Positions 1,689 through 14,886 of a DNA stretch of 29,335 bases are shown here, piece by piece (position 1 is the stretch's first letter; each line of letters opens with the position of its first letter). Position numbers and translations under genes: made by a program. The notes under the pieces were generated by a model, which ran no database searches, was not told the DNA's origin, and worked only from the letters and a program-made list of their open reading frames with translations. Source of the stretch: a virus; the IMG/VR virus record IMGVR_UViG_3300029981_000048, positions 1-29,335 of that record; one strand, given 5' to 3'.

Positions 1689-3170
1689 ATGGATACTATC
1701 AAACGCCCCGTAGGACGCCCCCGCAAGCACCCCCGAACGCTCAAGGGTGACGGCTTGCGACTTGCCGCATATAAGGCCCAGACGCTCGCCAAGGACGCCG
1801 CGCCCTATACGTACCCGATCAAACCTCCTACCCTCGCGCCCGGCGTCGTTCCTAAAGGCGCACAAGCCCCCGTGATGGCAATGGACAGCAATCCGTACCA
1901 GTACGCCATGCGGGGCGGGCTTCCTGGCGGCGGCTTCCCGGGCTTTCAGTATCTCGCGCAGCTTGCCACCCGTGCCGAGTACCGGGCGTTTGCTTCGACC
2001 ATGTCGACGGAACTGACTCGTGAATGGATTGAATTTTCAGGCAGTGACGACACAGCCGACAAGATCGAAGCAATCAAGGCGGAATTCAAGCGGCTAAACG
2101 TGCGGGGCGTGATCCAAACGGCCGCAGAACACGATTGCTACTTTGGGCGCGGGCAGATATTTATTGACTTGCGGGGCCATGATCGAGAAGTGCCGCTAGT
2201 TCTCGCCCCGGCAACCGTAGCCAAGAGAAGCCTTGTACGTATCAGCGCTGTCGAAGCAGTGTGGACAACGCCCAGCGCTTACAATGCACAAGACCCGTCC
2301 GCGCCTGACTTCTACAAGCCTACTGAATGGTGGATGCTTGGACAACAGGTGCATGCCTCGCGCTTGATGACCATCGTGACCCGCCCGCTGCCTGACATTC
2401 TGAAGCCGGCGTTCAACTTCGCCGGCATGAGCCTGTCGCAACTGGCAGAGCCTTACGTTGACAATTGGCTCCGCACGCGCCAGAGCGTTGCCGACCTTAT
2501 CAACAACTTCAGTATCACGTGCCTCGCGACCAGCATGGAGCAAATCCTGCAGGGCAACGATGACGGCGCGGACCTTTTCAAGCGGGCCGACCTTTTCACG
2601 GCCATGCGTAGCAATAAGGGCTTGATGCTGCTCGACAAGGATCGCGAGGAACTCGTACAGGTCAATACGCCGCTGTCCGGACTGCACGAACTGCAGGCGC
2701 AGAGCCAAGAGCATATGTGTTCTTGCTCCAGGATGCCCGCTATCGTGCTGACGGGCATCTCGCCAAGTGGGTTGAATGCGTCCAGTGACGGCGAGATTCG
2801 AGTCTTCTACGACTGGATCGCTGCGCAGCAGACGGCCTACTGGCGCGCCCCGGTCGAGACGATTCTTGACCTTGTGCAACTGTCGTTGTTCGGTGAGATT
2901 TTCCGAGACATAACTTTTGACTTCGTACCGCTCTATCAGATGACGCCGGCGGAAGAATCCGATATTCGCGCCAAGGATGGCGTAACGGATGTTGGCTACA
3001 TCAATGCGGGCGTTGTCGATCCGTCCGAAGTGCGCGAGAAGCTAGCAAAAGACCCGACAAGCGGCTTTGACGGGCTTGACTTGTCGCTCATTATCGTGCC
3101 GCCTTCGGAGCCTGACGATATGGGTGGGGAACTGCCAGAAGAGAAGCCGAGCGATGCCGAGCAAGCCTAA
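1689..3170 (+). CDS. Phage portal protein, DUF1073 family
   Basis: A 493-aa product that should form the dodecameric portal at the head vertex, the docking site for terminase and the head-tail connectors. The central sequence (RAEYRAFASTMSTELTREWI, then AEHDCYFGRGQIFIDLRG, and later MPAIVLTGISPSGLNASSDG) matches the DUF1073 portal family. Length and position after terminase agree. Residues 5-15 (KRPVGRPRKHP) form an AT-hook-like basic motif. Some DUF1073 relatives carry a C-terminal Acb1 2H-phosphoesterase; here the protein ends in a short acidic tail with no such domain. The start at 1689 has no visible Shine-Dalgarno sequence, and the upstream 30 bases are very AT-rich. Confidence 0.9.
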   Translation: MDTIKRPVGRPRKHPRTLKGDGLRLAAYKAQTLAKDAAPYTYPIKPPTLAPGVVPKGAQAPVMAMDSNPYQYAMRGGLPGGGFPGFQYLAQLATRAEYRAFASTMSTELTREWIEFSGSDDTADKIEAIKAEFKRLNVRGVIQTAAEHDCYFGRGQIFIDLRGHDREVPLVLAPATVAKRSLVRISAVEAVWTTPSAYNAQDPSAPDFYKPTEWWMLGQQVHASRLMTIVTRPLPDILKPAFNFAGMSLSQLAEPYVDNWLRTRQSVADLINNFSITCLATSMEQILQGNDDGADLFKRADLFTAMRSNKGLMLLDKDREELVQVNTPLSGLHELQAQSQEHMCSCSRMPAIVLTGISPSGLNASSDGEIRVFYDWIAAQQTAYWRAPVETILDLVQLSLFGEIFRDITFDFVPLYQMTPAEESDIRAKDGVTDVGYINAGVVDPSEVREKLAKDPTSGFDGLDLSLIIVPPSEPDDMGGELPEEKPSDAEQA

Positions 3171-4014
3171 AGTCGCCCGGGCGACCCACGCGAACCGGGG
3201 AATCGAAAGTGCGTACCGACGGTCAATGCTCGCCCTGATTGACCAGATGAATGCGTCCGTCGAGTACTGGCTGACGGCAGGCTATCGCAAGGAGCCGCCG
3301 CGCATGGCCGCGCTTGTTGAGTATAGCTATGATGCTGATTTAGCTCTATTTTCGGGTGGCGGGCGGCACCCTATCGATGCTCGGCGCTTAGCCTTGGACG
3401 CCTCGCCCGCTCTCCACATTAAGCGCGTCCTGGCCGACCTTGCCGACCGCTGGATAAAGCGCTTTGACGAGTGGGCACCAAAGATCGCCGAGGCGTACCT
3501 GCGCGATATGTTCAAAGCGTCCGACAGTTCCATGCGTGCCGCGCTGAAGGATGCGGGCTGGACTGTTGAATTCAAGATGACACCAGCAGTGCGTGACGCA
3601 TTTCAAGCCTCGCTCGCCGAGAACGTCGGCTTGATACGTTCCATTCCCGAGCAGTATCTGGGCAAAGTCGAAGGTATCGTCATGCGGTCGTATAGCGCGG
3701 GCCGCGACTTGCAGACGATGGTTAAAGACTTGAAGGCGCTCTATCCACAAGCAGCACATCGGGCGGAATTGATAGCCAGGGACCAAAGCGGGAAGGCTAA
3801 TGCTGTCGTCAACCGGGCGCGACAATTGGAATTAGGTATTACAGAAGCCGTATGGCTTCACTCTCATGCAGGCAAGACGCCCCGCCCTGACCACGTTGCT
3901 GCGAACGGGAAGCGCTACAAGATTGCGGAAGGGTGTCTCATATCGGGCGAGTACATACAGCCGGGCGAAGAGATTAACTGCCGCTGTACGTCTCGACCAA
4001 TACTGCCGATTTAG
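3154..4014 (+). CDS. Mu gpF-like / SPP1 gp7-like head morphogenesis protein
   Basis: A minor head protein of 286 aa that probably binds the portal and is ejected or packaged with the head. The C-terminal third carries the Mu-F signature: ARDQSGKANAVVNRARQ, then a Trp in AVWLHSHAGKTPRPDH, then PGEEINCRCTSRPI. The start at ATG 3154 is chosen because AGAAGAGAAG lies just upstream and the product then begins MPSKPKVARAT; the frame stays open further upstream, but inside the portal gene. It overlaps the portal gene by 17 bp, which indicates translational coupling. Confidence 0.9.
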   Translation: MPSKPKVARATHANRGIESAYRRSMLALIDQMNASVEYWLTAGYRKEPPRMAALVEYSYDADLALFSGGGRHPIDARRLALDASPALHIKRVLADLADRWIKRFDEWAPKIAEAYLRDMFKASDSSMRAALKDAGWTVEFKMTPAVRDAFQASLAENVGLIRSIPEQYLGKVEGIVMRSYSAGRDLQTMVKDLKALYPQAAHRAELIARDQSGKANAVVNRARQLELGITEAVWLHSHAGKTPRPDHVAANGKRYKIAEGCLISGEYIQPGEEINCRCTSRPILPI

Positions 4015-4020
4015 ATCAGA

Positions 4021-4200
4021 TTAGGCGCGTACCGGTTTAGCTTTGATTGCGCCATACATGACGCTTGCTTTAAAGGCTTCAGTTCTTCTCATTTTTCTGA
4101 AAAGCTGATCCGCCAAGTCGTCAAGGTCAATTTCGACTTCGATGGTCAAGAAAACGCCGGGGCCATTTTGGTATTTGAATTGTTTAGCGATTTTGTCCAT
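4021..4200 (-). CDS. Small protein of unknown function, 59 aa (moron-like)
   Basis: Minus-strand gene starting at ATG 4200 with GGAG seven bases upstream. A longer in-frame start at 4272 exists but would lie upstream of the promoter. The product has an N-terminal strand-like stretch (GPGVFLTIEVEIDLDDLADQ) and a basic C-terminal helix (RKMRRTEAFKASV, ending KAKPVRA). No known family is recognised. It lies convergent with the Mu-F-like gene and antisense to the late operon, with its own promoter (4231-4259) that is a near copy of the one at 1628-1656. Confidence 0.7.
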   Translation of the reverse strand: MDKIAKQFKYQNGPGVFLTIEVEIDLDDLADQLFRKMRRTEAFKASVMYGAIKAKPVRA

Positions 4201-4206
4201 GGTGTT

Positions 4207-4248
4207 CTCCGTTGCGTTGTTGATGTAGTAATTATGCATTACGCTATT
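4207..4248 (-). repeat. Promoter-leader repeat copy 2
   Basis: Matches 1604-1645 at 40 of 42 positions; the two differences fall between the -10 and -35 elements. Beyond the block, the upstream sequences diverge except for the -35 hexamer. Confidence 0.85.
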
Positions 4249-4259
4249 TAACTTGTCAA
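4231..4259 (-). promoter_or_regulatory. Sigma70-like promoter of the 59-aa gene
   Basis: On the minus strand the sequence is a consensus TTGACA (4259-4254), a 17-bp spacer, then CATAAT (4236-4231). This is the best promoter match in the window. The leader to ATG 4200 is the shared repeat. Confidence 0.75.
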
Positions 4260-4294
4260 GCAGAATTTGCAAAAATGTTTCATAATTCCCACAT

Positions 4295-4317
4295 CTTTAC
4301 GGAGCGTACATCATGGG
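4295..4317 (+). repeat. Duplicated ribosome-binding-site/start cassette, copy 1
   Basis: The string ACGGAGCGTACATCATGGG and its flank match 10121-10143 at 21 of 23 positions. It supplies the Shine-Dalgarno sequence (CGGAG) and the ATG of the 60-aa gene. The second copy does the same for the 114-aa gene after the capsid gene. Confidence 0.65.
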
Positions 4318-4495
4318 CGAACTTGCCTCAGACGGACGAATGATCTATCCCAATCGAGCCGCCCAAGCCTTCGGGTACGACGGTAACGGGAAGATGACCA
4401 CAGCTACCCTCACGCAGTACGGCGCGGTGTACGTGAAAACTTACACTTGGACAAATTCGCTTCTCACCGCTCAGAGTTTGTGGGTTAAGCAATGA
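4313..4495 (+). CDS. Small conserved-looking phage protein, 60 aa
   Basis: The gene begins at ATG 4313 behind ACGGAG and ends in an ATGA overlap with the next gene. The product has the pattern FGYDGNGKMTTATLTQYGAVY, VKTYTWTN and a terminal WVKQ. This type of short beta-rich sequence occurs in small phage proteins encoded next to fibre or virion-surface proteins. Tight coupling to the SGNH-like protein downstream suggests that the two work together, perhaps as an adaptor and its enzyme. Function is not established. Confidence 0.65.
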   Translation: MGELASDGRMIYPNRAAQAFGYDGNGKMTTATLTQYGAVYVKTYTWTNSLLTAQSLWVKQ

Positions 4496-6621
4496 AACTC
4501 GATTGGGCGAAGATTTACGCGCTGTCAGGCGTTACGCCGACGGACGCGCTGAAGCAGCAAGCTGAGATTTTCAGCAAGTTCGGAATGTCGCCCACGATCA
4601 TTGCCAATCTTATCGCCTGTCTGGGAACCGGCGGCGAAGTCGCGCCCGCCCCTATTGGCATCATGGCCGCAAGTCAGGTCCCTGTCGCCATATACTCGCT
4701 GCGCAAGGTCAATCCGGCCTATGCCGGAAATTGCTGTCAGGTTCGAGACTCGGGCAACACGCTTCGCACCTTTGGATTCAACGCCAACGGCGTGATCGAC
4801 GTGAGCCTTGCGCCAACCTACGGCGACGGCGTAACTTTCACGCTTGCCTCGTTTTACGACCAGTCAGGCGGCAATCACCATTTCTCATCGACTGCTCGCC
4901 CGATCTTCAAGCTTGCGCAGATCACAACGCAGGATGGCTATTCGCTGCCGGGCATTGACTTCACGTCCAAGACGTTGAACATGGTCACGACCGACACGTT
5001 TGTAGCCGTCGGCGGCACCAACAATCTTGCGGTCCATATCATCGGGCAGACTGCCGGCTGGTCGAGCGCTGGAACGCACGCACGCGCCCCTGCGGTGTAT
5101 TCGAGCGCCAACGGCCCGATGCTTGGCTATGGCACCGCCGCTAACGGTCTTGTCTTCGGGGCGTACATGGCCTCTGGTGAGACCGTCATGTACGCCAAGC
5201 AAGGCGAGTTGCTTCTTGAAGACGGAACGCCGACGGCGGCTCGCGTGCGCAATCTTTGGTTCAATCAGCGCGGGGCGACCGTTGCTGGCGGCGCGGATAT
5301 TCGCAAGTTCTATACTGGGCGGGTGCACGGTGTTGCTGACGCCCAATCGCAGCGACTCGTCCTGGGCAATAATGGGGCGGTCAGCCAGTCGCACAACGGC
5401 ATGATCTTTGAAGTCGTCCTATACCAGAACGCTACGCCAATGGCGGATACGGAGGCGTGGGCGATAAGCTTGGGTCAGCGGCAATTCTGGGGCGCGCTTG
5501 GCGCGGCGAACTATCCGACTCGCTACTATGCTATCGGCGCGGGCCAATCGTTGATGCAGTACTATGCAACAATTGCTTCGGCAAGCACGGGCCTTCTAGC
5601 AGATTGTGCGAACCTTCGCATCTTCACACCGGCCGTAACCACGCTTCTCAATGCCGCCGGCTATCCAGACAGAGAACTGCTGGCGGCATTTGGTGCGACG
5701 GCTTATGGCGGCTCATCGGCGCTTAAAGGTGCTGGCGCGGGCACGCCAGACGGCCCTGGTGGAACGTCCTGGTTGAGTTGGGACGGCTCGACGCTGGTCA
5801 AGAAATTTTGGTGGGACCAAGACCTCGACATTCCCGGCCCTGTACTCGTCAATTGGAAAACTCAGATCGCGGCGTTCGTCGGCGCGAAGTACAACAACAC
5901 GGCGATATTGTGGGATCAAGGACAAGCTGAAGCGATCACCTTCTCGGGCGGCGAGGTTGGTTCGGTCACGATTGCAAACTGGACGCGCTGCACGCCGCTT
6001 ATCTGGGCGAACATGCGGGCCACGCTGGGCAATGCCACAATTCCCATCGTGATCCAGCCGCTCGGCCGGCAACAGGGCTACGATACGATGATGCGGACGT
6101 TGCGGCTCATTCAGAATCAATTCGCGGCCAACGATTCAACCGTGCATCTAAGCGCTGATGATCACGACTTGACGCGCCAGGACGGAGTGCATTTAGGGGC
6201 GGGACCTGCTGACCCTTACGGCTTCGATACCGCCGCTACGCGCATATCCAAAGGCTTTATTGCGCAATTTGACGCCTCCGTAAAATATACCGGCCCGTCG
6301 GTTATCTCGGCGGTACGATCCAGTACGACAAGCGTTGACGTTACGATTGGATGGGCGGCAACTGGAAGCGGAACGGACTTTACGCCGACGAGCGGAATTG
6401 TCGGATTTGAAATAACCGATGGTGGCGGAGCGCGGACTATTTCGGCAGCAGTTCGCCAATCCGCAAGCACGATTCGATTGACCGTATCGGGCGCGGCATT
6501 TAGCGGCTCAGTTTCGGTTATCCACAATCCGCAGCCGTCGGCACTCGATAGAACTTTGATGGTTATCGATAATATCGGCCTGCCGCTGGCTCCGTGCACG
6601 GCAATAATGGACATAATCTAA
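4492..6621 (+). CDS. Large virion-associated protein with LamG-like and SGNH/GDSL-hydrolase-like domains
   Basis: A 709-aa protein encoded within the capsid module. Residues about 65-330 look like an arabinofuranosidase-B-type/LamG-like beta domain: VAIYSLRKVNPAYAG near 66-80 and a YDQSGGNHHF motif near 122-131. Residues about 345-595 resemble an SGNH or sialate-O-acetylesterase-like hydrolase, with the block I motif GQS at 351-353 (S353 the candidate nucleophile), WDQGQAEA at 474-481, and D564-G-V-H567 as the C-terminal Asp-His pair. The last 110 residues form an Ig-like beta domain. The likely role is a surface-displayed esterase acting on host polysaccharide, or a capsid decoration. Secretion signals are absent. 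The start overlaps the upstream stop (ATGA). Confidence 0.75.
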   Translation: MKLDWAKIYALSGVTPTDALKQQAEIFSKFGMSPTIIANLIACLGTGGEVAPAPIGIMAASQVPVAIYSLRKVNPAYAGNCCQVRDSGNTLRTFGFNANGVIDVSLAPTYGDGVTFTLASFYDQSGGNHHFSSTARPIFKLAQITTQDGYSLPGIDFTSKTLNMVTTDTFVAVGGTNNLAVHIIGQTAGWSSAGTHARAPAVYSSANGPMLGYGTAANGLVFGAYMASGETVMYAKQGELLLEDGTPTAARVRNLWFNQRGATVAGGADIRKFYTGRVHGVADAQSQRLVLGNNGAVSQSHNGMIFEVVLYQNATPMADTEAWAISLGQRQFWGALGAANYPTRYYAIGAGQSLMQYYATIASASTGLLADCANLRIFTPAVTTLLNAAGYPDRELLAAFGATAYGGSSALKGAGAGTPDGPGGTSWLSWDGSTLVKKFWWDQDLDIPGPVLVNWKTQIAAFVGAKYNNTAILWDQGQAEAITFSGGEVGSVTIANWTRCTPLIWANMRATLGNATIPIVIQPLGRQQGYDTMMRTLRLIQNQFAANDSTVHLSADDHDLTRQDGVHLGAGPADPYGFDTAATRISKGFIAQFDASVKYTGPSVISAVRSSTTSVDVTIGWAATGSGTDFTPTSGIVGFEITDGGGARTISAAVRQSASTIRLTVSGAAFSGSVSVIHNPQPSALDRTLMVIDNIGLPLAPCTAIMDII

Positions 6622-10488: not shown

Positions 10489-10887
10489 ATGGCCGTCGTC
10501 GTTTTCGATCCGGTCGCTTTCAAAGCCCGCTATCCAGAATTCGCGGCGGTCAGCGATGGCCTACTGTCGGCATGCTTCACTGAAGCCGGCCTGTACCTGT
10601 CCAACACGGACGCCTCGCCCGTTCAGAGCGTTCCGCGCCGTACCTTGATGCTCAACATGTTAACCGCACATGTGGCCTACCTGGGCGGCGCGTTGAGCCT
10701 TGACGGCCAGCCACGTCCCGTCGGGCGGCTATCGCAAGCGGGAGAAGGTTCCGTATCGGCATCGTTTGAGTACATGACGCCCGGTACGCAGGCATATTTT
10801 GCCCAGTCACAGTATGGAGTTGCGTTCTGGCAGGCCACGCTTAGCCTTCGATCCTTCCATTACCGCCCCCGCCCTACGTGCTATTAG
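10489..10887 (+). CDS. Head-tail adaptor, DUF4054 family
   Basis: A 132-aa protein. The N-terminus FDPVAFKARYPEFAAVSDGLLSACF and the C-terminal segment GSVSASFEYMTPG followed by AYFAQSQYGVAFW are the DUF4054 hallmarks. These proteins form an adaptor ring (gp6/Ad1-like) under the portal. Position between the capsid and tail-completion genes agrees. AAGGA lies about nine bases before the ATG. Confidence 0.85.
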   Translation: MAVVVFDPVAFKARYPEFAAVSDGLLSACFTEAGLYLSNTDASPVQSVPRRTLMLNMLTAHVAYLGGALSLDGQPRPVGRLSQAGEGSVSASFEYMTPGTQAYFAQSQYGVAFWQATLSLRSFHYRPRPTCY

Positions 10888-10896
10888 GGGATTGAG

Positions 10897-11118
10897 ATGA
10901 CTCGCGACGAACTGCTAACAAAACTCTGTGAAGACCTCGGTATTGCGGATACGGAAGTTGCCCACGATCTTATTGAGAAATTTGAGGCTGACGCTAAAAA
11001 CTGTCATTGGCTCGACCAAGGCAACGCGACTTGGGAAGACAAATTACGATGGGCACGAGAAGATGCAAATAAATGTCGGATTGCGCTTGAAGTCGCGTTG
11101 AAAGAACTGGGCCGATAG
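10897..11118 (+). CDS. Hypothetical 73-aa protein
   Basis: A small acidic, helical protein (ELLTKLCEDLGIADTEVAHD, then WEDKLRWAREDANKCRIALE) starting behind AGGGGA. It carries two Cys and a Trp but no recognised motif. It sits in the connector operon and is followed after one base by the neck gene. It could be an assembly factor; nothing in the sequence proves that. Confidence 0.7.
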   Translation: MTRDELLTKLCEDLGIADTEVAHDLIEKFEADAKNCHWLDQGNATWEDKLRWAREDANKCRIALEVALKELGR

Positions 11119-11119
11119 C

Positions 11120-11674
11120 ATGGCGACCCTTTCCGGTTCCGACGGCGTGATGAAAGCCCTTGAAGAAATTGCGAAGAAAATGGGCGGCGGGTCGGTATCG
11201 GTCGGGTTCCCAGAAGGTGACACTTACCCAGATGGTACGCCTGTCGCCGCTGCTGCTTTCTGGAATGAGTTTGGCACGTCAACCATTCCGCCTCGCCCGT
11301 TCTTCCGCACGATGATTGCCAAAGAATCGCCCGGCTGGCCTGCAACGATGGCCGCTCAAGCAAAAGCCACAAACTACAATGGGCCTCTCGTCTTGGCGCG
11401 AATGGGGGCAGACATTGCCGGAGCTTTACGTGAGTCCATTATTGACGTGAACAGCCCCCCGCTCTCGCCAATCACCCTCATGCTCCGCAAGATGGTCGGC
11501 AACAAACCGGAGCTTGTAACTGGCGCAATGGTCGGCGAGGCGGCGCGAAAAGTTGCTGCTGGTGAAACCGGCGCGACCGGAACGCAGGCCAAACCTCTCG
11601 ATTGGACGGGCACGATGATGCGCGCCCCGGCATATAGCGTTAACGGCGGAGCTTTTACGAGGATTGCGGAATGA
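11120..11674 (+). CDS. Neck/tail-completion protein, HK97 gp10-like
   Basis: A 184-aa protein. The core VSVGFPEGDTYPDGTPVAAAAFWNEFGT followed by IPPRPFFRTMI is the classical motif of neck or tail-completion proteins (GF-x-YpdG-vA-x-NEFGT-PpRPFf). These close the head-tail interface or the tail terminus. The C-terminal part is less conserved and Ala/Gly-rich. The gene ends in an ATGA overlap with the ubiquitin-like gene. Confidence 0.85.
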   Translation: MATLSGSDGVMKALEEIAKKMGGGSVSVGFPEGDTYPDGTPVAAAAFWNEFGTSTIPPRPFFRTMIAKESPGWPATMAAQAKATNYNGPLVLARMGADIAGALRESIIDVNSPPLSPITLMLRKMVGNKPELVTGAMVGEAARKVAAGETGATGTQAKPLDWTGTMMRAPAYSVNGGAFTRIAE

Positions 11675-11883
11675 ATATCAAAGTGAACGGCAAGGATGTG
11701 AATACTCCGGTCAGTCAATTGACCTATGACGCGCTGTGTTTCTTGGCCCGCGTCGATCCTGCCAACAATCCGAGCGCTACGTATCGTTTACCCAACGGAG
11801 CGAGCGGCGTCGTTTGGCCCGGCAATCCGGCGCAAGTTGTCGAGGGCGCAAAGTACAGCGTTTATCATACGGGACTTTCCTGA
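11671..11883 (+). CDS. Ubiquitin-like (multi-ubiquitin-type) single-domain protein, 70 aa
   Basis: The sequence runs MNIKVNGKDVNTPVSQLTY, then DALCFLARVDPANNPSATYR, a Gly-rich turn, VVWPGN, and VVEGAKYSVYHTG. This order (IxVNGK strand, LTYDxLxxLA helix, TYR strand, PG turn, EGxxYxVxxT strand) follows bacterial multi-ubiquitin repeats, which have the beta-grasp fold, but only one copy is present. It ends TGLS without a terminal di-glycine, so classical conjugation is not apparent. It is coupled on both sides (ATGA and TGATG overlaps) to neck and connector genes, so a structural or assembly role is the conservative reading. The assignment rests on pattern recognition only. Confidence 0.6.
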   Translation: MNIKVNGKDVNTPVSQLTYDALCFLARVDPANNPSATYRLPNGASGVVWPGNPAQVVEGAKYSVYHTGLS

Positions 11884-12257
11884 TGGACCTTCGCGGCATT
11901 GCTAATAGCGTAACGAACATCGTCAATCCGAACGAGACGGTAAGTGTCTTGCGCTCGACGGGCTTTACGGTCGGCTCGGGCGGTAAGCAAGTGCCGACCT
12001 ACGCGACGGCGGTAGATGGCCCGGCACAAGTGCAGGCCCTGGACGGCGACACGCTCAAGCAGATGGACAACCTAAACATTCAAGGCGTGCTGCGTGCGAT
12101 CTACCTGCGCGGGGCGCTGGCGGGCGTTGTGCGGCCCGCAGGCACGGGCGGCGACATTGTGAAACGTAAGGCCGGGACCGAAACATGGCTTGTCGTCAAA
12201 GTGCTCGAGACATGGCCCGATTGGACCAAAGCGGTTATCTGTTTGCAAAGCTCATAA
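11883..12257 (+). CDS. Conserved head-tail joining region protein, 124 aa
   Basis: The start is taken at ATG 11883 (TGATG overlap with the previous stop), giving MDLRGIANSVTNIVNPNETV. The rest (RSTGFTVGSGGKQVPTY, then VQALDGDTLKQMDNLNIQGV, then TWLVVKVLETWPDWTKAVI) matches a small protein conserved in the connector module of Gram-negative myoviruses. The exact function is unknown; head-tail joining or tail completion is inferred from position. It overlaps the next gene by one base (TAATG). Confidence 0.75.
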   Translation: MDLRGIANSVTNIVNPNETVSVLRSTGFTVGSGGKQVPTYATAVDGPAQVQALDGDTLKQMDNLNIQGVLRAIYLRGALAGVVRPAGTGGDIVKRKAGTETWLVVKVLETWPDWTKAVICLQSS

Positions 12258-12802
12258 TGCCTAACTACGTATCAAGCATAACGGTCGATGCGGTTATTGA
12301 CGCGCTCAAGGCGTTTCTGTTGCCGTTCATTCCTGACGGTGCGAATAAAATCGTGCGCGGCCAGGGCAATCGCGTTCCATTGCCGGCCGATCCGTGTGTT
12401 GTGCTGACCGAATTGCTGCAAGTCGATTTGAGCGTACCGCGCATGGATTATCAGCCGCCGACCGATCCTATTCCAGCCATCGGGACGGCCACAATTCACG
12501 GGCCGGCGCGCATTGATGTGCAGGTTGATTTTTACGGCGAGAGTGCGGGCGATTACTGCAAGGCCGTAAAAAATACGTTCAAATCAATGTGGGGAGCAGC
12601 ACAGTTTCCAAAAAATATCCAGCCCCTTTATACGTCGGATGGCGTACAATCCCCATTGATTACGGGGGAAGAACAATGGGCGAGCCGATGGACGCTTACC
12701 GTTTCGATGCAATATAACCCTGTTGTGACCGTGCCCCAAGATTTTGCCAGCGAGCTTGCGGTACATGAAACCATCGCGGCAGACATTAATTATGAGGTTT
12801 AA
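12257..12802 (+). CDS. Neck/tail terminator protein, gp12-like
   Basis: The start at ATG 12257 gives 181 aa. The pattern AVIDALKAFLLPFIP, then GQGNRVPLPADPCVVLTEL, and GPARIDVQVDFYGESAGDYC is typical of the neck-terminator (LIC_12616/gp12-like) family, which caps the tail tube and sheath at the head-proximal end. Its place immediately before the sheath gene agrees. Confidence 0.85.
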   Translation: MPNYVSSITVDAVIDALKAFLLPFIPDGANKIVRGQGNRVPLPADPCVVLTELLQVDLSVPRMDYQPPTDPIPAIGTATIHGPARIDVQVDFYGESAGDYCKAVKNTFKSMWGAAQFPKNIQPLYTSDGVQSPLITGEEQWASRWTLTVSMQYNPVVTVPQDFASELAVHETIAADINYEV

Positions 12803-12805
12803 ATC

Positions 12806-14287
12806 ATGAGCATTCCTGCCTCGGACATAGTAACAGTTAATCCCGGCGTCGTCGGAACGGGCGGGAGTCCGCTCGCGCTTAACGGCGTCATTATGACCAA
12901 GAACGAATTGCTGCCAACTTCCGCCGTTCGTTCCTTTGCATCCGCTGATGCGGTCAGCGCCTTTTTCGGACCGTCGTCCGCCGAATATACGCTCGCGTCG
13001 ATTTACTTTCTCGGCTTCGACAACTCCACGCTCAAGTCCGGCACACTGTACTTTGCCCCCTACGTCGGCGCGGCGCGTGCTGCATGGCTTCAGTCGGGTA
13101 CGCTGTCTGGCATGACCTTGATCGACCTGCAGGCGCTCACCGGTACATTGATCGTTACCGTCGACGGCACGGCCTTCACGTCGTCCTCGATTAGCCTTGC
13201 AACCGCCACCAGCTTCAGCGATGCGGCCACGAAGATCGCCGCTGCCTTCACGGGCACAGGCAAGCCGACTTGCGCTTGGAACGCGGTAAATAGCACGTTC
13301 TCGCTGGTCAGCACGACGACCGGCGCGACCTCGACCATCGGCTATGCGACCGGAACGCTTTCTGCCTCGCTCAAATTCACCAGTGCGACCGGCGCGATTC
13401 TCTCGCAAGGCGCTGTTGTCGACACCCCAACTACCGCGATGAACTCCGTCAAGGCCCAGACTCAGAACTGGGTTGACTTCATGACAATGTGGGAGCCGCT
13501 GACCGCCGACAAGACGGCCTTTGCTGTCTGGACCAACTCGCAGAATCAACGCTACATGTACGCCTGTTGGGATACCGACGCACAAGCCATTATCAACGGT
13601 TCGACAACCAACTTCGGGTATCTTGCCAAGACTGCGAAATACGACGGCGTCGTCCCACTTTATAACACTGCGGCGCTCGCCGCCTTCGTTCTGGGTACCG
13701 TGGCGTCAATCGACTTCAGCCGCAAAAACGGCCGCATCACGGGCGCGTTCAAGTCGCAGAGTGGATTTACCGCCACCGTTACCGACCAGCAGATTGCCGC
13801 GAACCTGCTTGCCAACGGCTACAGCTTCTACGGTATCTATGCCACGGCCAACGACCAATTCGAGTTTCTGTACAACGGCCAGATGACCGGCAAGTGGTTG
13901 TGGATCGATCCGTTCGTCAATCAGGTCTATTTGAACTCCCAATTCCAGCTTGCCGAATTGTCGCTGCTCACAAGCGTCGGTTCGATTCCCTATAACGAGG
14001 CTGGCTACTCGCTGATTCGTGCCGCGATGATCGACCCTATCGAAGCCGCGCTCAACTTCGGCGCGATTCGTACCGGCATCAGCATGTCGAACTCGCAGAA
14101 AGCTCAGGTCAATCAAGCGGCCGGACTGGACGTGTCCACAATCATCGAACAACAGGGGTATTACTTGCAGATTCTCGATCCGGGCGCTCAGGTTCGCGGG
14201 CTTCGTGGAACCCCCACAATTTCGTTTTTCTACACGGACGGCGGCGCTGTGCAAAAGATCACCGTTGCGTCGATCGATATTTTGTAG
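12806..14287 (+). CDS. Contractile tail sheath protein, DUF3383 family
   Basis: A 493-aa product forming the contractile outer tail. The N-terminus SIPASDIVTVNPGVVGTGG followed by LNGVIMT, and the C-terminal SFFYTDGGAVQKITVASIDIL, are characteristic of DUF3383 sheaths. The middle (residues about 95-215) holds a Thr/Ser/Ala-rich beta insertion that probably forms the outer surface. GAGGT lies about eight bases before the ATG. The gene defines the phage as a myovirus. The expected tube gene is separated from it by an HNH gene. Confidence 0.92.
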   Translation: MSIPASDIVTVNPGVVGTGGSPLALNGVIMTKNELLPTSAVRSFASADAVSAFFGPSSAEYTLASIYFLGFDNSTLKSGTLYFAPYVGAARAAWLQSGTLSGMTLIDLQALTGTLIVTVDGTAFTSSSISLATATSFSDAATKIAAAFTGTGKPTCAWNAVNSTFSLVSTTTGATSTIGYATGTLSASLKFTSATGAILSQGAVVDTPTTAMNSVKAQTQNWVDFMTMWEPLTADKTAFAVWTNSQNQRYMYACWDTDAQAIINGSTTNFGYLAKTAKYDGVVPLYNTAALAAFVLGTVASIDFSRKNGRITGAFKSQSGFTATVTDQQIAANLLANGYSFYGIYATANDQFEFLYNGQMTGKWLWIDPFVNQVYLNSQFQLAELSLLTSVGSIPYNEAGYSLIRAAMIDPIEAALNFGAIRTGISMSNSQKAQVNQAAGLDVSTIIEQQGYYLQILDPGAQVRGLRGTPTISFFYTDGGAVQKITVASIDIL

Positions 14288-14289
14288 CC

Positions 14290-14886
14290 ATGAAAACGTG
14301 CACTCGCTGCAAGGCGACAAAGCCGCTTAGCGAATTCTACGCCCGCAAGTCTGCAAAAGATGGGCGAGAATCGCATTGCCGCGAGTGTGCGGGGGAAAAG
14401 GTTAGGCTATATCACGCGACGCATAAAGAGGCTACTAAAGCCTATAAAATTGCCAACAAAGAGCGTTCGTCGATAGTTGATAAAGCGTATCGTGAGTCAC
14501 ATAAGGCCGAAACCAAAGCGAGAACTTCCAAGTGGTCAAAATTGAACCTGGAAAGACGTATTGCTGCGAATCGCGAAAGTCGAAAAATATCTCGTCGCGA
14601 ATGGTCACGCGCGAATCCCCATTTGGTTTGCCAGCAAGCGGCAAAACGCCGCGCCGTTTCTCGTCAAGCTACTCCAAAATGGGCCAATCGCTTTTTCATA
14701 CAAGAAGCGTATCATTTAGCTGCACTGCGAACGAAATTGACGGGGATCGATTGGCATGTTGACCACATTGTTCCGTTAAATTCCCCGTTGGTATGTGGGC
14801 TACATTGCGAAGCAAATTTGGCGGTTATTCCCGCTAAAGAAAACTTATCGAAGTCAAACCGTCAATGGCCGAACATGCCAATCTAA
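14290..14886 (+). CDS. HNH endonuclease with N-terminal zinc ribbon (homing-type)
   Basis: A 198-aa protein. C4-x2-C7 and C30-x2-C33 form a zinc ribbon. A long Lys/Arg-rich helical linker (residues about 45-130) follows, then the HNH core: W155-H-V-D-H159, H172-C-E-A-N176-L, and E-N185-L-S-K-S-N. It nicks or cuts DNA, and as a free-standing gene between the sheath and tube genes it is most likely a selfish homing endonuclease. The base composition is clearly more AT-rich than its neighbours, a sign of recent transfer. No Shine-Dalgarno sequence is obvious before ATG 14290. Confidence 0.9.
   Translation: MKTCTRCKATKPLSEFYARKSAKDGRESHCRECAGEKVRLYHATHKEATKAYKIANKERSSIVDKAYRESHKAETKARTSKWSKLNLERRIAANRESRKISRREWSRANPHLVCQQAAKRRAVSRQATPKWANRFFIQEAYHLAALRTKLTGIDWHVDHIVPLNSPLVCGLHCEANLAVIPAKENLSKSNRQWPNMPI

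Follow-up and report, generated by a model that had tools for sequence, protein, structure and literature searches.

An accessory gene in a phage neck operon encodes a single-domain ubiquitin-like protein with predicted kinship to the C-terminal repeat of bacterial multi-ubiquitin proteins

The viral record IMGVR_UViG_3300029981_000048 was analysed over its 29,335 nt (the window), which contain a myovirus-type structural cassette comprising genes for a portal, a Mu-F-like protein, the major capsid protein, a DUF4054 protein, Neck1, a head/neck protein, a terminator, a DUF3383 sheath and the baseplate (Table 1). Between the Neck1 gene (neck1) and the head/neck gene (neck2) lies an ORF whose product, MNIKVNGKDVNTPVSQLTYDALCFLARVDPANNPSATYRLPNGASGVVWPGNPAQVVEGAKYSVYHTGLS, had been described in a first-pass annotation as a free-standing ubiquitin-like protein (Ubl) coupled by overlaps to its neighbours. 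The ORF has exactly the limits then proposed, and the product is indeed a single domain, with 70 aa in total. The overlaps were also confirmed: the stop codon of neck1 shares bases with the ATG of the Ubl gene (ATGA), and the TGA of the latter shares bases with the ATG of neck2 (TGATG). In the annotated frame, codon usage matches the native genes of the phage (+0.13 per codon, with negative values in all the other five frames), and GC3 is 0.61. This is a real gene and, as described below, it encodes a real Ubl domain.

Table 1. Features in and around the Ubl gene, with positions in the 29,335-nt window.
Feature	Position	Strand	Evidence or remark
DUF4054 virion structural protein	10489..10887	+	PF13262, E 4.8e-14; PHROG 302
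Second accessory insertion, 73-aa ORF between DUF4054 and neck1	10897..11118	+	Low GC3; absent in relatives
Tail completion/Neck1 (neck1), upstream border of the slot; stop overlaps Ubl start	11120..11674	+	PHROG 222, E 2.2e-36
Single-domain Ubl protein, 70 aa, Multi_ubiq C-terminal-domain type	11671..11883	+	PF14452, E 3.6e-5; AF2 pLDDT 88.3; Foldseek/VIA; leave-one-out E 2.9e-14
Codons of Thr67-Gly68, two residues before the C-terminus	11869..11874	+	Invariant in four phage homologues (alignment A7)
neck2 ('head protein', phrog_1912), downstream border of the slot; ATG overlaps Ubl stop	11883..12257	+	PHROG 1912, E 6.4e-37
Neck/tail terminator protein	12224..12802	+	PF23961, E 8.4e-22
Contractile tail sheath (DUF3383), marks the cassette as myovirus-type	12806..14287	+	PF11863, E 4.9e-127

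The 73-aa ORF upstream of neck1 has a GC3 of 0.43, compared with ~0.6-0.7 in its neighbours, and no homologue among the related loci that were compared. Between the sheath and tube genes, a 198-aa HNH-like ORF (14290-14886; GC 0.48, atypical codon use) looks like a homing endonuclease, with no family match above cut-off. Additionally, the ORF at 4492-6621 encodes 709 aa that weakly match carbohydrate esterases (SASA); with the Mu-F-like gene on one side and the capsid protease/scaffold region on the other, this is an odd location for a receptor-type enzyme.

The annotation of the Ubl as a neck-operon protein was right as to its position between neck1 and neck2, but the gene is optional there. 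Among 123 distinct neck1-neck2 junctions, 95 leave no room for a gene, a rough fraction because the sample was chosen by similarity and contains near-duplicates. The empty junctions include those of the closest relatives of the window phage: neck1 is directly followed by neck2 both in its nearest relatives by neck1 (L030-L033, ~80% identical) and in those by neck2 (L003-L013, 73-77% identical). Elsewhere, the slot contains GIY-YIG or HNH-type nucleases (L153, L122), unrelated ORFs (Amjad_SA, Acjo_20, L018, L159) or, on its own, a recurrent domain of ~60 aa with no Pfam match above cut-off (L093, L104, L106, L107, L177, L222). On one contig, L133, this small domain is fused to a Ubl. Wherever Ubl or small-domain genes are inserted, coupling by overlaps is preserved (ATGA or GTGA). 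Since most junctions are empty, even in the closest relatives, and the slot holds varied cargo, the Ubl gene is moron-like, an accessory insertion in a cargo slot of variable content, and does not encode a core neck protein.

The slot ORFs of Amjad_SA (62 aa) and Acjo_20 (89 aa) were considered as possible Ubls and rejected, as they gave no Multi_ubiq or profile match, and iterative matches of the small N-terminal domain to Aeromonas phages were set aside as apparent profile drift. GIY-YIG-like ORFs occur at several neck junctions, between neck2 and the terminator gene in L030-L032, before neck1 in contig L134 (1938-2504) and between neck1 and neck2 in L153.

A pattern typical of bacterial multi-ubiquitin repeats had been recognized in the first-pass annotation, which proposed a search with multi-ubiquitin profiles and a structure prediction followed by a fold search. 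Both were run, and the pattern proved to be more than chance. The Pfam profile Multi_ubiq (PF14452) aligned with residues 2-60 of the window Ubl at E=3.6e-5 and 24.3 bits, 0.2 below the curated cut-off of 24.5; alone, this score is only suggestive, and the matter was settled by a homologue, leave-one-out profiles and structure. Home-made profiles of bacterial multi-ubiquitin domains placed the window Ubl higher than 2000 shuffled versions of its own sequence and than 3845 other ORFs. An IMG/VR scan based on aligned neck1 proteins, followed by inspection of the neck1-neck2 interval, uncovered a 72-aa protein in the same slot of L134 (IMGVR_UViG_3300046710_000007), 37% identical to the window Ubl (phmmer E=2e-10) and clearly a Multi_ubiq member, with a score over the cut-off (32.2 bits, E=1.2e-7). 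By the same procedure, we found the L133 protein, of 144 aa, whose C-terminal half is the Ubl domain. Same-slot examples are these three only (window, L134 and L133), all on assembled viral contigs, which may be incomplete. A further homologue, from the uncultured huge phage LR756511, exceeded the Multi_ubiq cut-off with 26.3 bits, and it is the same protein that had appeared as a weak match (E=3) to the window Ubl in a BLAST-type search. When each of the four phage Ubls was omitted in turn, the profile of the other three recovered it from 18,120 ORFs as the sole new match above noise, at E-values of 2.9e-14 (window), 1.5e-12 (L134), 2.2e-9 (L133) and 5e-6 (huge phage).

A BLAST-type search with the 70-aa query found nothing in IMG/VR with default settings and nothing at E<1 in GenBank phages, and plasmid matches had E-values of 0.5-9. 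PHROGs, NCBIfam and PADLOC returned nothing useful for the window Ubl, and IMG/VR scans seeded with the bacterial C-terminal domain, the huge-phage domain or an alignment of the window and huge-phage domains retrieved no relatives. A match in a Devosia contig (L034) was rejected because it is antisense to an rpoN-like gene.

An AF2 model of the window Ubl, computed from the window, L134 and L133 sequences only, reached a pLDDT of 88.3 and a pTM of 0.71, with the order beta-beta-alpha-beta-beta-beta; a single-sequence model (pLDDT 43) was discarded. In Foldseek searches of the PDB, bacterial multi-ubiquitin/BubA proteins occupied ranks 1-7, with individual E-values of only ~0.01 owing to the short length of 70 residues. 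Likewise, the first six VIA-align ranks were all multi-ubiquitin/BubA chains, with Z-scores of 9.6 (8u38), 9.4 (9cd2), 9.3 (9d5b), 8.7 (9d59 and 9d5a) and 7.9 (9ea8, C-terminal domain of BubA), the last across all 70 residues, whereas ubiquitin reached at most 6.7. A fold search of BFVD gave no convincing viral match. The window Ubl is thus predicted, from its model, to be a beta-grasp fold closest to solved multi-ubiquitin domains.

To place the phage proteins within this family, Multi_ubiq proteins were gathered across 398 genomes belonging to a single bacterial phylum, the one that includes Devosia genome G001; 14 genomes contained matches, 12 of them over the cut-off. The domains of these proteins were sorted into first, second and C-terminal before comparison with the phage profile by hhalign. 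The phage profile aligned nearly full length with the C-terminal type (P=6e-16), as against P=7e-5 and 8e-4 for the second and first domains, respectively. Used against the same 398 genomes, the four-phage profile gave a clean result: the five loci that it matched at E<=0.01 encode multi-ubiquitin proteins without exception, and the match fell in the C-terminal domain wherever the protein has several; a three-phage profile (A5) gave only weak, partial matches. In the PDB, the only match of the four-phage profile at E<0.001 was to residues 148-220 of 9cd2, the last domain. The title of entry 9ea8, 'Citrobacter BubCD(D104A)-BubA(155-229) complex', indicates that the C-terminal BubA segment is the part solved bound to a pathway enzyme. 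By profile comparison, then, the kinship with bacterial multi-ubiquitin repeats stands and can be refined: the phage Ubl is a predicted homologue specifically of the C-terminal repeat of multi-ubiquitin (polyUbl/BubA) proteins.

The four phage Ubls are only 28-37% identical, and nine residues are invariant among them: N6, G7, Y19, A26, T37, G43, V64, T67 and G68. All four end in Thr-Gly-x-x, whereas the bacterial C-terminal domains mostly end in T-x-x-S and usually have no Gly at the aligned position. That the Thr-Gly tail is kept despite ~30% identity elsewhere suggests recognition or processing at this site, as far as four sequences can tell. The absence of a C-terminal Gly-Gly had been noticed before and taken as an argument against simple conjugation. 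The observation is correct, as the protein ends in Thr67-Gly68 plus two residues, but the argument is weaker than it seemed: Gly68 does not vary among the phage homologues, and conjugation through a single Gly is known from CBASS, whose cGAS has no double Gly (PMC10449767).

In LR756511 (595 kb), the Ubl lies near 71.8 kb (L065:2779-3225). It is of the same Multi_ubiq C-terminal type, with a TG-x-x tail and 31-32% identity, but makes up the C-terminal portion of a larger protein (148 aa) whose N-terminus contains Cys. Unlike the window record, this genome has E1-like and JAB genes: at 277500-286000 of LR756511.1 (L253), minus-strand ORFs 3117-3770, 3760-4404 and 4566-5042 include ThiF/E1-like and JAB genes with a 214-aa ORF between them. 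The Ubl and these genes possibly make up a phage-borne ubiquitin-like pathway.

Bacterial multi-ubiquitin (polyUbl/Bub) operons have been on record from in silico work since 2006 and, to our knowledge, their purpose is not settled. Multi-ubiquitin proteins correspond to the 'polyUbl' class 6e of Iyer 2006, whose members are multi-domain and operon-borne, a solo form having been noted once in that study (PMC1779556). With multi-ubiquitin/BubA proteins (PF14452; 9cd2, 8u38, 9d59, 9d5a, 9d5b, 9ea8), the phage Ubl shares the predicted beta-grasp fold, and with their C-terminal domain detectable homology that includes a VNG start, a Y/F-x-V strand and a short tail. It differs from them in having one domain instead of two or three, in its Thr-Gly-x-x tail and in being encoded by a phage within a structural operon. 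Moreover, whereas class 6e/Bub operons have E1-like, JAB/peptidase and RWD/E2-like genes as neighbours, no E1-like or JAB gene was found in the window record, a 29-kb fragment. Because it has a single domain, we file the window Ubl as a homologous domain and not as a polyUbl protein; judged by sequence, the phage Ubl is most aptly described as a homologous single multi-ubiquitin domain that occurs in a new setting.

The tail assembly protein I of phage lambda (TAPI), the classical phage Ubl, likewise has a Ub-like domain and a gene within a structural operon; it is ThiS/MoaD-like, carries an extra C-terminal domain and lies next to a JAB/NlpC protein in the tail-tip cluster (PMC1779556). The window Ubl, in contrast, is polyUbl-like, single-domain, optional and located at the neck, and its record has no JAB match. 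In the anti-phage system Bil, another bacterial Ubl pathway, a Ubl becomes joined to the tail fibre of the phage and assembly is disrupted (PMC12948488), a late step that would coincide with the expected expression of the window Ubl. By analogy, Bil illustrates that bacterial Ubl pathways can act at the assembly stage; it is no evidence of membership, and the relatives found for the window Ubl are named multi-ubiquitin/Bub. A literature search, with most subscription journals outside its reach, found no paper describing phage-encoded multi-ubiquitin domains.

The nearest solved relatives of the window Ubl are proteins named multi-ubiquitin/BubA. Among the possible roles, we tentatively favour that of a late-expressed decoy or competitor for an enzyme of the host multi-ubiquitin (Bub/6e polyUbl) pathway. 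Judging by gene position, the Ubl would be made late, together with the structural operon, and would join the host multi-ubiquitin pathway as a false substrate. As a homologue of the enzyme-bound domain, it could occupy the E1/peptidase (BubCD-like) enzyme by way of the corresponding surface of the C-terminal Ubl, and the conserved tail (Thr-Gly-x-x) would be processed or activated unproductively. The host would thereby be kept from attaching its own Ubl, or from assembling its filaments of Ubl, at the time when the heads and tails of the phage are put together. We infer interference as the outcome from the single domain, the optional cargo status and the absence of E1/JAB genes: PF14464 and PF00899 (JAB/E1-like) had no match in the 29-kb window fragment, so that, as far as seen, this phage cannot run the pathway alone, and no E1-like/JAB genes were found in the L133 or L134 contigs, both fragments. 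Counting against a decoy, the window fragment contains no other recognized anti-defence gene, and we know of no demonstration that Bub pathways act on phages, the system demonstrated to conjugate a Ubl to phage tails being Bil (PMC12948488). Still more tentatively, the phage Ubls may form a family of single-domain mimics of the enzyme-engaged multi-ubiquitin C-terminal domain that block or hijack host Bub/polyUbl pathways.

It is unlikely, though worth serious consideration, that the Ubl is instead an accessory virion protein, which would bind the neck or the connector between head and tail and travel with the particle, as decoration or for delivery into the next cell. Its gene is overlap-coupled between neck1 and neck2, and the proteins may thus be made in matched amounts; in L133, moreover, the Ubl is fused to the small domain found alone in this slot in six other phages, a fusion to a structural-operon domain that could mean virion attachment instead of a decoy role. 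However, the Ubl is absent from almost every relative whose neck proteins are 73-80% identical, and is thus dispensable for assembly; homing nucleases and unrelated ORFs are also found in the slot, and the kinship found by the phage profile is with a Ubl domain of an enzymatic pathway and not with a connector. Because the gene is accessory and its slot variable, a role as structural adaptor is less probable than the decoy or inhibitor that the first-pass annotation had also put forward.

A working modifier, attached to host or phage proteins by E1-like enzymes of the host or, in the huge phage, of the phage itself, appears improbable. The invariant Thr-Gly two residues before the end resembles a precursor that needs trimming, and LR756511 has its ThiF/E1-like and JAB genes close together, but such genes were not found in the window, L133 and L134 contigs (all three fragments), the proteins lack a terminal Gly-Gly, and their bacterial relatives usually have no Gly at the aligned position. 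More doubtful still is that a lone Ubl caps or disrupts host multi-ubiquitin filaments instead of acting on enzymes: solved relatives form filaments, according to the titles of 9d59 and 9d5b, and the window model fits their domains with Z-scores of 8.7-9.3, but the phage Ubl, which lacks the extra repeats of such proteins, is of the C-terminal type and resembles the other two domains weakly. Finally, the possibility that a short ORF resembles the family by chance, or encodes a beta-grasp protein that is not homologous, as could be argued from a Pfam score just below cut-off and a poor single-sequence model, is very hard to reconcile with the same-slot L134 homologue above cut-off, the leave-one-out recovery of all four phage members, the confident three-sequence model and the phage-like codon usage.

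Besides lambda TAPI, the window Ubl represents a second, independent kind of phage Ubl, and it offers a small tool protein for probing the E1/peptidase of polyUbl/Bub systems. A phage copy of the C-terminal, enzyme-binding domain also provides a direct way to ask whether polyUbl/Bub operons act against phages. If true, the proposed mimicry of the enzyme-engaged domain would be the first sign of Bub/polyUbl pathways acting in the conflict between phages and their hosts.
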